Assembly (NCBI RefSeq): GCF_010119205.1
Contig: NZ_WRXM01000002.1
Span: 922,982 to 986,981 of the forward strand
Direction of reading: 5' to 3'
DNA length: 64,000 bases
Source: Haloarcula limicola
Lineage (GTDB): Archaea > Halobacteriota > Halobacteria > Halobacteriales > Haloarculaceae
Positions 26,005-55,699 of this stretch are shown piece by piece. The translations under genes were made by a program, and so were the position numbers. Positions within the stretch are counted from its first letter, which is position 1, and each line of letters opens with the position of its first letter. The notes beneath the pieces are model-generated. The model had not been told where the DNA came from. It saw only the letters and a list, made by a program, of their open reading frames with translations, and searched no databases.

Positions 26005-26895
26005 ATGGACCTGCTCGACGTCGACGACCTCACGACCGACGAACTGACCGCGGTGCTCGACCGCGCCGCCGACATCAAGGCCGCCCCCGAGACGTACGAC
26101 GACGCGCTCGACGGCCAGACGCTGGGGATGATCTTCGAGAAGCCGTCGACGCGGACCCGCGTCTCCTTCGAGACGGGGATGACGAAACTCGGCGGTCACG
26201 CCGTCTTTCTCGGCCCGGACGACATCCACCTGGGCCACGGCGAACCCGTCAAGGACACGGCCCGGGCGCTCTCGCGGTACGTCGACTTCGTGATGGCCCG
26301 CGTCTTCGACCACGCCGACGCCGAGGAACTGGCCGAGTACGCCGACGTGCCGGTCATCAACGCCCTGACCGACGACGCCCACCCCTGCCAGACGCTCGCG
26401 GACTTACTGACCGTCCGCGAGGAGTTCGGCGGGTTCGAGGACGTCTCGGTGGCGTGGGTCGGTGACGGCAACAACGTCTGTCAGTCGTTCGTGCTGGGCG
26501 CGGCGATGACCGGCATCGACCTCACCGTCGCCACGCCCGAGGGGTACGAAGTGACCGACGACGTCCTGGAGCGGGCGGCCGAGTTCGACAACGCGCCCGC
26601 GACGACTCACGACCCCGAGTCGGCCGTCGAGGACGCCGACGTGGTCTACACGGACGTCTTCGTCAGCATGGGCCAGGAGGACCGCCGCGAGGCGAAACTC
26701 GCCGACTTTGACGGCTTCCAGGTCACCACCGACCTGCTCGGCGACCGCACGCTGATGCACTGCCTGCCCGCCCACCGCGGCGAGGAAGTGACCGACGAGG
26801 TTATCGAGTCGGAGAACGCCGTCGTCTGGGACCAGGCGGAGAACCGGATGCACGCGCAGAACGGGCTGCTGACGTGGCTGGCGGATAGAAAGTAG
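26005..26895 (+). CDS. argF: Ornithine carbamoyltransferase
   Basis: Forms citrulline from ornithine and carbamoyl phosphate. 296 aa with carbamoyl phosphate motif EKPSTRTRVSFE, ornithine-side HPCQTLADLLT and the HCLPAHRG loop. The start is 2 nt after argE. It ends the operon: a hairpin with T-tract follows at 26898-26928. The last 23 codons (ending MHAQNGLLTWLADRK) reappear, decayed, 211 nt downstream. Confidence 0.96.
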   Translation: MDLLDVDDLTTDELTAVLDRAADIKAAPETYDDALDGQTLGMIFEKPSTRTRVSFETGMTKLGGHAVFLGPDDIHLGHGEPVKDTARALSRYVDFVMARVFDHADAEELAEYADVPVINALTDDAHPCQTLADLLTVREEFGGFEDVSVAWVGDGNNVCQSFVLGAAMTGIDLTVATPEGYEVTDDVLERAAEFDNAPATTHDPESAVEDADVVYTDVFVSMGQEDRREAKLADFDGFQVTTDLLGDRTLMHCLPAHRGEEVTDEVIESENAVVWDQAENRMHAQNGLLTWLADRK

Positions 26896-26897
26896 TC

Positions 26898-26928
26898 CCG
26901 CGCTGAACGAAGTGAAGCGCGGCTTTTT
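26898..26928 (+). terminator. Hairpin plus T5 after argF
   Basis: Perfect 7-bp stem CCGCGCT (26898-26904) and AGCGCGG (26916-26922) with an 11-nt loop, followed by C and five T. Begins 2 nt after the argF stop, so it probably ends the arginine operon transcript. It is also the first part of the spacer shared with ileS. Confidence 0.7.
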
Positions 26929-26959: not shown

Positions 26960-27037
26960 TGCTTCGCTCTGCTCAGCAAGACCACGGTTTTCGAGGCGTG
27001 GTGGCCGCGGGTCACCCGACGAAGCAAAAGGCGGCTG

Positions 27038-27106
27038 CTGGACCGGACGGAGAATCGGACGTACGCGCAGAACGGGCTGCTGACGCGGCTAGCGGGTAGA
27101 AGTTAG
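27038..27106 (+). pseudogene. Decayed second copy of the argF 3' end
   Basis: These 69 nt align without gaps to the last 69 nt of argF (26827-26895), with about 57 of 69 positions identical by eye. Translated in the same phase it gives DRTENRTYAQNGLLTRLAGRS against DQAENRMHAQNGLLTWLADRK in ArgF, and both end at a stop codon. Most differences are transitions. It is far too short to be an enzyme, so it is called a remnant; a conserved-looking spacer precedes it. Confidence 0.85.
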
Positions 27107-27215
27107 CTCCCCGTCGACCGGGGCGAAGCGGTATTCCCGGATGGACGGCACGGAGACCGACGCCGTCTATCCGCGAGCCAGGAGATTGATGACCGTTTCC
27201 GGTGAATGGGCAGAC

Positions 27216-34376: not shown

Positions 34377-34380
34377 ACGA

Positions 34381-34454
34381 CCTTTTTCACCCGGGGGTTC
34401 GCGCTCGCCGGCGGCGAGCGCTCAACCCCGGGCCAAAAACGTCGATGAAAAAGG
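34381..34454. repeat. Nested palindrome downstream of lysC
   Basis: Outer arms CCTTTTTCA (34381-34389) and TGAAAAAGG (34446-34454) enclose a near-perfect 43-bp palindrome at 34390-34432 (CCCGGGGGTT...GCGCTCGCCG-g-CGGCGAGCGC...AACCCCGGG). Two more hairpins follow, CGAGT...ACTCG and CCGGCGGC-TCC-GCCGCCGG (34486-34504). It starts 4 nt after the lysC stop and may terminate transcription. The CTTTTTC ... GAAAAAGG frame recalls the spacers after argF and ileS. Confidence 0.7.
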
Positions 34455-54900: not shown

Positions 54901-55164
54901 TACGCCCGCGAGGTCGTCCGCCGGATTCAGGAGATGCGCAAGGAACTGGAACTGGACATCGAGGCGCGTATCGTCGTAGACCTCTCGATTGCCGACGACC
55001 GCGTGGATTCGCTGGTTCGGGAACACGAGGCCCTAATCAAAGAAGAGGTGCGCGCCGACGAACTCGGTACTGTTGAGGACGGTCACCGCAAGACGTGGGA
55101 CGTCGAAGGCACCGAGATGGAGATAGCTATCGCACCTGTGGCACCAGCACAGACCTCGGACTGA
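51913..55164 (+). CDS. ileS: Isoleucyl-tRNA synthetase
   Basis: 1083 aa class I synthetase. HIGH motif as HMGT in GPPYTSGAAHMGTTWNKTL, KMSKS as GRGMSKSKGVLIDP. Editing domain with IWTTTPWTIPANTFVAVDGD; zinc-type pairs CPRC and CWRC. C-terminal anticodon and tail regions are complete, ending MEIAIAPVAPAQTSD. Start MDRFAAVDDQYDPEDVEEGV; the frame is open far upstream but that is shadow sequence. The last 78 codons are repeated downstream after a 99-nt spacer. Confidence 0.97.
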   Translation: MDRFAAVDDQYDPEDVEEGVFSHWDDVDAYEQTKAHRADGEEFFFVDGPPYTSGAAHMGTTWNKTLKDLYIRYHRMKGYDVTDRPGYDMHGLPIETKVEERLDFENKKDIERFGEENFIEECKAFAEEQLEGLQTDFQDFGVWMDWDDPYKTVNPEYMEAAWWGFQRAHERGLVEQGQRSINQCPRCETAIANNEVEREEVGKPSIYVKFPLADREGSLVIWTTTPWTIPANTFVAVDGDVTYQGVRATKDGEEEVLYVAEPRVEDVLSKGRYDDYEVVEEVTGEEMVGWEYDHPLSEEVPDHASGEGSLQVYTADYVDAEDQTGLVHSAPGHGEEDFERGRELGLEIFCPVGSDGVYTEQGGEYAGTFVRDANDDVIADLEAKGALLASESGYTVNEGHCWRCDTGIVRIVTDQWFITVTDIKDELLANIEDSEWHPSWARDNRFRDFVEDAPDWNVSRQRYWGIPIPIWLPEDWDGSMENAIVVGDREELTERVDQDVDPETVDLHKGTVDDLTITEGGTTYSRVEDVFDVWLDSSVATWGTLDYPERTEDFERLWPADLIMEAHDQTRGWFWSQLGMSTAATGEIPYKEVLMHGYANMPDGRGMSKSKGVLIDPHEVIEKHGRDPMRLFLLSVTAQGEDMNFSWEETQEMQRRLNILWNVARFPLPYMRADDFDPEETTVEAVEGDLELADEWVLSRLQSVEEAMTEHMDEFENDKAAHELLDFVVEDVSRFYIQVVRERMWEEEDSDSKRAAYATLYRVLEEVAALFAPFTPFVAEKIYGSLTGDAGHPTVHMCDWPEPTDDLHDPALEDEIEVVREVEEAGSNARQQAERKLRWPVTRVVVDIAGRGPAGSQTSSDDTDSDAVADAVRSQSAIVADRLNARSVDVVGADEAWGELHYSAEADMSELGPAFGDDAGRVMNALNDARIEEPSLDALEGAVEEALGERVDLTEEMVEFRRETPEGVTGTEFKALDGGGVVYVDTTLTEDIESEGYAREVVRRIQEMRKELELDIEARIVVDLSIADDRVDSLVREHEALIKEEVRADELGTVEDGHRKTWDVEGTEMEIAIAPVAPAQTSD

Positions 55165-55263
55165 CTCTCAACGGGACCGAGCACCGCGAGGCCCCGCTTT
55201 TTCGCCCACGTTTTTCAACGAGCGGTGCGCGGAGCGCACCCGAGGCAGAAAAAGGTGGCAGCC
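55165..55263 (+). other. Structured spacer between ileS and its tail copy
   Basis: Holds two T5 tracts (55198-55202 and 55211-55215; likely transcription stops), then a perfect hairpin GGTGCGC-GGA-GCGCACC, then CGAGGCAGAAAAAGGTGGC, leading straight into the tail copy. The same order of parts stands between argF and its tail copy. Confidence 0.7.
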
Positions 55264-55497
55264 GAGATGCGCAAGGAACTGGAACTGGACATCGAGGCGC
55301 GTATCGTCGTGGACCTCTCGATTGCTGACGACCGCGTGGACTCGCTGGTTCGGGAACACGAGAACTTGATCAAAGAGGAGGTCCGCGCCGACGAACTCGG
55401 AACTGTTGAGGACGGTCACCGCAAGACGTGGGACGTCGAGGGCACCGAGATGGAGATCGCCATCGCCCCCGTGGCACCGACACAGACGTCGAACTGA
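55264..55497 (+). pseudogene. Second copy of the ileS 3' end (78 codons), possibly expressed as a small protein
   Basis: 234 nt aligned without gaps to 54931-55164, ending at the same stop codon. In an ORF of 76 aa from the internal ATG at 55267 it reads MRKELELDIEARIVVDLSIA onward and ends VAPTQTSN. By eye 17 codons differ: 14 synonymous and only 3 changing an amino acid (Ala to Asn, Ala to Thr, Asp to Asn). That pattern is not a neutral decaying copy; either the fragment is constrained or one of the two copies came from a related genome. It cannot be a synthetase alone. Confidence 0.85.
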
Positions 55498-55699
55498 CGG
55501 TCGGAGTCGACGGCCCGAGGTCCCGCTTTCTCGCGTCCGTACTTCGAGGGGTGAGCGAACCGAACGTACCTGACGACGAAAGGAGCCGCGAGCAACAGGT
55601 AACAACTGCTAACGTCTCACAAAGCGTACTAGCCCGTAGCGCTCGCTGCGAAGTCACGCGGTCGAGGGGACACGTCGAACAGAGCGCGGGAGCAACACG

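Follow-up and report, generated by a model that had tools for sequence, protein, structure and literature searches.

A second ileS gene end behind a dispersed hairpin in Haloarcula limicola, and similar gene-end copies at many haloarchaeal genes

Why should a gene be followed by a second copy of its own end? The window, i.e. the whole stretch of 64,000 nucleotides analysed here, comes from the 3.9 Mb genome of the haloarchaeon Haloarcula limicola (G000) and contains ileS, whose product has the Pfam domains tRNA-synt_1, Anticodon_1, and DUF5915. The first-pass annotation, made from the sequence alone, described the two gene ends (X_L within ileS and X_R downstream of it, Table 1) as a gap-free match over 234 nt in which 17 codons differ, 14 of them synonymously. 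We obtained the same result: 234 of 234 nt are aligned, TGA ends both copies, 17 codons (19 nt) differ, and the three that are not synonymous change A to N, A to T, and D to N. The flanking DNA on either side of X_L and X_R is unrelated, and chance is excluded as the source of the match. An assembly error is unlikely, since six other genomes share the arrangement down to the junction codon.

The genome G026 has a single ileS tail and downstream DNA in common with G000 (GGTAACAACTGCTAAC... is shared up to the start of the next gene, as compared by eye), i.e. its ileS is a putative empty site for the second tail. In a tree of tails, X_L and X_R of G000 are sisters and G026 is the next nearest. 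The branch of X_L has 7 synonymous and 0 nonsynonymous changes. That of X_R has 6 synonymous and 3 nonsynonymous changes in its first 74 codons, plus D76N, and a single synonymous change is not attributable to either branch. The first-pass annotation had taken sister copies with even substitution across codon positions as an argument against its reading: the copies are sisters, but their differences are still biased toward third positions. Most likely, X_R is a displaced, non-functional gene end.

Table 1. Features of the ileS locus and of a second case in the window (positions in the window).
Feature	Position	Strand	Basis or remark
ileS, isoleucine--tRNA ligase, 1083 aa	51913..55164	+	TIGR00392, 862.6 bits, E 3.2e-259
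X_L (copy 1), functional ileS 3' end, 78 codons with stop	54931..55164	+	alignment
E, 99-bp spacer: small stem-loop, two T5C tracts, R hairpin, 5 nt	55165..55263	+	sequence
First T5C tract, terminator-like	55198..55203	+	sequence
R, dispersed hairpin with covarying stems, 55 bp	55204..55258	+	73.7 bits to model R1, which was built with this copy included
Second T5C tract, within the left arm of R	55211..55216	+	sequence
X_R (copy 2), displaced ileS 3' end, most likely non-functional	55264..55497	+	alignment, branch changes
Downstream DNA, native	55498..55699	+	right part matches, by eye, DNA directly after single-copy ileS of G026
Possible decayed R behind X_R, weak	55533..55586	+	5.2 bits, E 0.62, 801-base unfiltered search
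argF-like X_L, ORF 3' end plus flank	26829..26919	+	second case in window
R of argF-like case	26980..27034	+	42.6 bits, E 1.4e-9
argF-like X_R, decayed copy of gene end	27040..27130	+	7/21 residues differ

The spacer E between the two copies has a predicted fold of -38.5 kcal/mol (z -1.20). We read it as a putative terminator because TTTTTC occurs twice in it and T5C terminates transcription in Haloferax volcanii, where it halted 95% of transcripts according to the excerpted text of PMC7237163. Its main component is the hairpin R, with the arms CCACGTTTTTC and GAAAAAGGTGG, and X_R begins 5 nt past its end. A search of G000 with the region revealed that positions 55197-55261 are a dispersed repeat, and a gapped pattern of R has 19 copies in this genome while the reversed pattern has 0. 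With a covariance model, R was found in 121 of the 145 sampled genomes of Halobacteria, the counts per genome being highest mostly in the family of the window. In an alignment of 40 elements (from 46 of matching length, six irregular ones being excluded by hand, which favours structure), changes on both sides of the stem number 92, against 32.6 in shuffles. The stem covariation is 0.265, against 0.066 when shuffled, and 0 of 500 shuffles reach it; the search pattern fixed part of the outer stem, and the pairs that carry information are located farther in and at the rim. R is a structured element, of RNA or of single-stranded DNA, and palindrome correction in DNA could give the same signal. It has no match in Rfam at the gathering score (5 loci, 13911 bases, E<=1), the matches of 21.9 and 20.1 bits both being under that score. 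A phage origin of E was discarded when a phage collection gave no match. We found no description of the element or of the pattern in the open-licence PubMed Central literature searched, which is weak evidence of absence. The window has a third R element (34378-34446, minus strand), without an adjacent duplicate.

A search of 146 genomes of the family, with subsequent inspection of the candidates, identified a tandem second ileS tail in six genomes besides G000: G002, G004, G071, G116, G124 (which has three tails), and G139, where an intact E lies behind copy 2. The seven cases span five genera. The second tail has the same starting codon in all of them (7/7), GAG ATG (CAG ATG in G116), directly behind R. 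Two tail matches were also tallied in each of G114, G115, G117, G031, and G155, which we left outside the seven tandem cases. Shorter copies of the ileS tail behind R were seen by eye in G005 and G019, and Salinibaculum litoreum (L266) has a copy of 69 nt, recognised by its C-terminal sequence.

Other fragments of ileS ends were met on the way. The Haloferax plasmids pBNX82-3 (L379:3480-4334) and pHME132 (L380:3480-4126) have unannotated ileS 3' fragments beside vapC. We rejected the idea that these are free-standing mobile tails, as the sequence is a longer ileS 3' fragment. The fragment of pBNX82-3 is followed by E, and such a plasmid is a possible vehicle for a tail unit. Two ORFs of 313 aa (L082 in G031:C3 and L083 in G004:C4) contain a short ileS-tail-like stretch, HRKTWDVEG. 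At five loci of congeners (L017, L022, L029, L031, and L033), ileS ends in CEADQ..., with part of the customary ending left behind it, which looks like the insertion of a short repeat close to the stop codon.

The same architecture recurs at many genes. Among the matches listed for G000 and 13 congeners (14 genomes), 69 of 144 distinct R elements have a copy of their upstream DNA no more than 25 nt behind them, compared with 11 of 576 at shifted positions in the same loci, a control that can overlap true copies; these loci are not independent, since orthologous loci recur. A replicate in named records from several genera gave copies at 40 of the 80 R elements tested (3 others too near an end were skipped), and at 3 of 257 control positions. 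In a class-wide sample, 10 of the 28 best-scoring R elements have a gene-end copy. Outside the family of the window, this is the case for one (L373) of the 8 elements sampled, one of the 8 being unreadable. The copies are 20-235 nt long, and most begin directly at GGTGG or a few nt beyond. Codon composition assigns the copies at the 67 R loci scoring at least 18 to 3' gene ends in 54 cases and to 5' ends in 11, with several of the 5' assignments being doubtful; the other 2 have no frame. One further case lies in the window (Table 1), behind a gene that we take, from its protein sequence, to be argF. Similar argF-like tails behind R recur in several genera. Both the hairpin and the genome-wide scale of the pattern lie beyond what the first-pass annotation had observed.

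Tandem arrays of tail and hairpin units with several repeats occur at L187, L193, L191, L229, and L231 (G017 and G014) and at L075 (G124). At L003 (G000:C2, near 890464), R is followed by a short copy, apparently of the 3' end of a tRNA gene, and the tRNA-like sequence itself lies around 150 bp past this copy.

Could the second tail be a gene in its own right? The first-pass annotation proposed a useful, translated protein equal to the C-terminal tail domain. As considered here, X_R would be a stand-alone ileS tail protein under selection, for which R would provide a promoter and a ribosome-binding site. The open frame and the synonymous-biased divergence agree with it, as do the AGGTGG 8 nt ahead of the ATG and the lack of internal stops in the second ileS tails listed. 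However, X_R is not a complete domain: it begins mid-domain and covers positions 128-193 of 195 in DUF5915/PF19302, the last third of this C-terminal domain, and it lies behind two T5C tracts. The same layout is found at many unrelated genes, with copies down to about 8 codons, of which a few are 5' ends. These sequences keep no fixed frame relative to the GTG shared at the end of the hairpin (22/14/11), the argF-like copy in the window is decayed, and the four nonsynonymous changes of the ileS pair all fell on X_R. We therefore regard a tail protein as very improbable.

The bias towards synonymous differences nonetheless has to be accounted for, and it is general. Pooled over 47 ungapped 3' pairs, dN/dS between X_L and X_R is 0.139 (146 changes, 45.5 nonsynonymous and 100.5 synonymous); it is 0.116 in the named set, from which five previously used species were left out (34 nonsynonymous and 82 synonymous). 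The nonsynonymous shares are 0.31 and 0.29, whereas we estimate that a share of about 0.6 would be expected if a duplicate drifted freely beside a constrained copy. The 5' cases lack this bias (dN/dS 0.65, 22 changes); together with the decayed argF-like copy they fit older relics, as expected. The bias reflects gene ends that were still in use, in separate lineages, while they diverged. The earlier claim that the codon-position pattern means divergence under protein-level selection holds in this sense, and does not extend to a new tail gene. The bias fits the import of a tail.

Such an import can be followed at ileS in G002 and G004. Compared in 75-nt windows, the body of the gene is 0.83-1.00 identical to that of the local clade (mostly 0.89-0.97), right up to X, whereas X_L is only 0.64-0.83 identical to it. 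The X_L of G002 and G004 are 0.99-1.00 identical to each other and 0.84-0.92 identical to those of G016/G027. X_R of both genomes groups with local relatives in the tail tree. Hence, the ileS body and X_R are native in these genomes, X_L and E are foreign, and the boundary lies near the start of X, within a conserved stretch of about 60 nt that sets the limit of resolution. The last difference between G002 and G004 upstream of X is around 36 nt away (by eye), so the foreign block is essentially the tail plus E. The two genomes may share one event.

A foreign 3' end beside a native body, with the old 3' end kept downstream, was also met at a second gene, in G011. There, the X_L haplotype is identical to that of G018 and the X_R haplotype is close to that of G005, both tail haplotypes occurring in other species. 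Between G005 and G011, 8 of 80 nt differ in X_L, spaced by multiples of three; the body has 8 differences in 360 nt (Fisher p 0.003). The import from a related genome by recombination ending inside ileS, which the first-pass annotation had offered as its other option, is therefore supported for G002, G004, and another gene. It is indirect for G000 itself, where the analogy with G002/G004 suggests that the tail was imported from a close, unsampled relative. As in G000, the tails of one genome are sisters in G071, G116, G124, and G139, so that donor and recipient are indistinguishable in all these genomes and in situ duplication is possible there.

If duplication were the general cause, a second terminator should follow X_R. 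Slippage or unequal exchange would have duplicated the tail with its terminator, and the second terminator would then have decayed. The arrays in G124, G014, and G017 and the intact second E of G139 agree with such an origin, as does the weak second R in the window, and two successive terminators would relax selection on the second. However, the second E is mostly lacking. In 64 of the 67 loci scoring at least 18, the median score behind the second copy is 12.25, compared with 12.5 for mismatched pairs. Only five of the 64 exceed the 95th percentile of mismatched pairs, four of which are arrays, the other being L211, with two R. The signal is lacking in most loci even where the X pairs are 98-100% identical. 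Tandem duplication also leaves the foreign X_L of G002/G004 unexplained. The missing second E rules it out as the general cause, with single cases such as G139, and overall we judge it quite unlikely.

Another reading is a mobile element. In that case, R/E would be a mobile palindromic element and the X copies would be long target duplications of variable length, later homogenised. This fits the X-E-X structure with the second E mostly lacking, and the X pairs that are often 97-100% identical; later unequal crossing over would give the X(EX)n arrays. Yet, known transposases make target duplications of fixed length, whereas X varies in length, the differences are strongly synonymous where a duplicated relic should drift, and X_L is foreign while X_R is native in G002/G004. 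In addition, for 37 of the 54 3' cases of the first survey, the end of the homology lies no more than 9 nt from the stop codon, although this holds for just 10 of 28 cases of the named set. We consider this explanation rather unlikely.

We give a slightly better than even chance to another explanation: a donor unit made of a gene tail and its terminator hairpin entered ileS, replaced the functional end, and displaced the old tail behind the terminator. The unit would comprise the ileS tail of a donor (X_L) with its adjoining terminator hairpin (E), joined 78 codons before the stop codon of ileS. The gene would now use the tail and terminator of the unit, its earlier tail (X_R) being stranded behind the hairpin, at whose 3' base we infer that the unit joins. 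Recombination as such is the likely cause of the second gene ends. Three facts constrain the joints: the right one coincides without exception with the base of R, the visible left boundary is the start of the tail, and the second E is usually lacking. The right joint (E|X) is non-homologous at a fixed place; by eye, the 2-4 nt before many junctions seem to match.

Two routes may be envisaged for the displacement. Recombination between the two copies of an X-E-X donor could excise a circle of tail and hairpin, and a homologous crossover in the tail could then insert this circle again. This would fit the right joint, the left boundary, and the missing second E, and would also yield X(EX)n arrays, which exist, but it leaves the first origin of the unit at a gene unexplained. 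Alternatively, a donor fragment ending at the hairpin could recombine homologously at its left end and be attached by an illegitimate joint at its right end, which would fit the position of the right joint and the missing second E. Once in place, the unit could be precisely lost again through recombination between the copies, or be multiplied by it into X(EX)n. Some observations weigh against displacement. The near-identical X pairs and an identity of X that is usually higher within a genome than between species (in sets picked by hand) would also be expected from concerted evolution, and the possible decayed R in the window and the intact E in G139 are what tandem duplication would give.

A more specific, and in our view fairly unlikely, version would see these units as dedicated haloarchaeal gene-tail cassettes, i.e. 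the mobile last 8-78 codons of a conserved gene with a structured terminator hairpin, inserting site-specifically at their own gene. Such cassettes would swap the ending of a gene and its terminator and leave the old ending behind. They might move in single-stranded or circular form and be recognised by their hairpin.

The pattern provides a countable record of recombination ending inside genes, and explains puzzling partial gene copies. It suggests that a class-wide hairpin family without a match in Rfam marks sites where gene ends are exchanged between haloarchaeal species. It also raises a testable question: do terminator hairpins serve as points where imported DNA breaks or is joined, or do they belong to a specific insertion system?

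Several known systems resemble parts of this architecture. Diversity-generating retroelements have a template repeat behind a hairpin and produce adenine-directed changes; they were rejected because the 19 differences between X_L and X_R are not adenine-directed. Integron gene cassettes consist of a short coding piece and an attC hairpin. The likeness lies in the order of coding piece and structured hairpin, in the arrays, and in an excision as circles that can be imagined. Unlike in integron cassettes, the haloarchaeal coding piece is a homologous gene end instead of an independent ORF, the attC core RYYYAAC...GTTRRRY is present in 0 of 144 E regions, and we know of no integrase linked to these tail and hairpin units. 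DDE transposons and MITEs were discarded, since X is not a target duplication of fixed length. Like the REP/REPIN palindromes associated with TnpA-REP (PMC3116915, PMC8266576), R is short, dispersed, and palindromic. This also holds for the small mobile repeats of Haloquadratum (SMR, PATE, and MITE; SMR-A is around 110 bp), but SMR insertion leaves the target site unduplicated and is directed at other mobile elements, and the excerpted description sets them apart in that none is said to carry gene ends (PMC3119063). E resembles archaeal T-tract terminators in having TTTTTC twice directly behind genes, although the excerpt of PMC7237163 does not describe these as dispersed, covarying elements with gene-end copies. 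A further parallel is the C-terminal displacement of Rhs proteins and of the type VI secretion effector arrays of Vibrio cholerae, which leaves orphan gene ends and for which, in the case of the displaced Vibrio effector genes, homology-facilitated illegitimate recombination was proposed (PMC5361080, excerpt). There too, a native gene body acquires a foreign 3' end, and its former 3' end is displaced downstream and retained. The haloarchaeal case differs from what the excerpt reports in that conserved genes are involved and their tails are nearly identical; the base of a single hairpin family invariably marks the right junction, and wherever the left boundary can be placed, it coincides with the start of the tail. 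The new part is the hairpin-linked, genome-wide pattern of gene-end copies.
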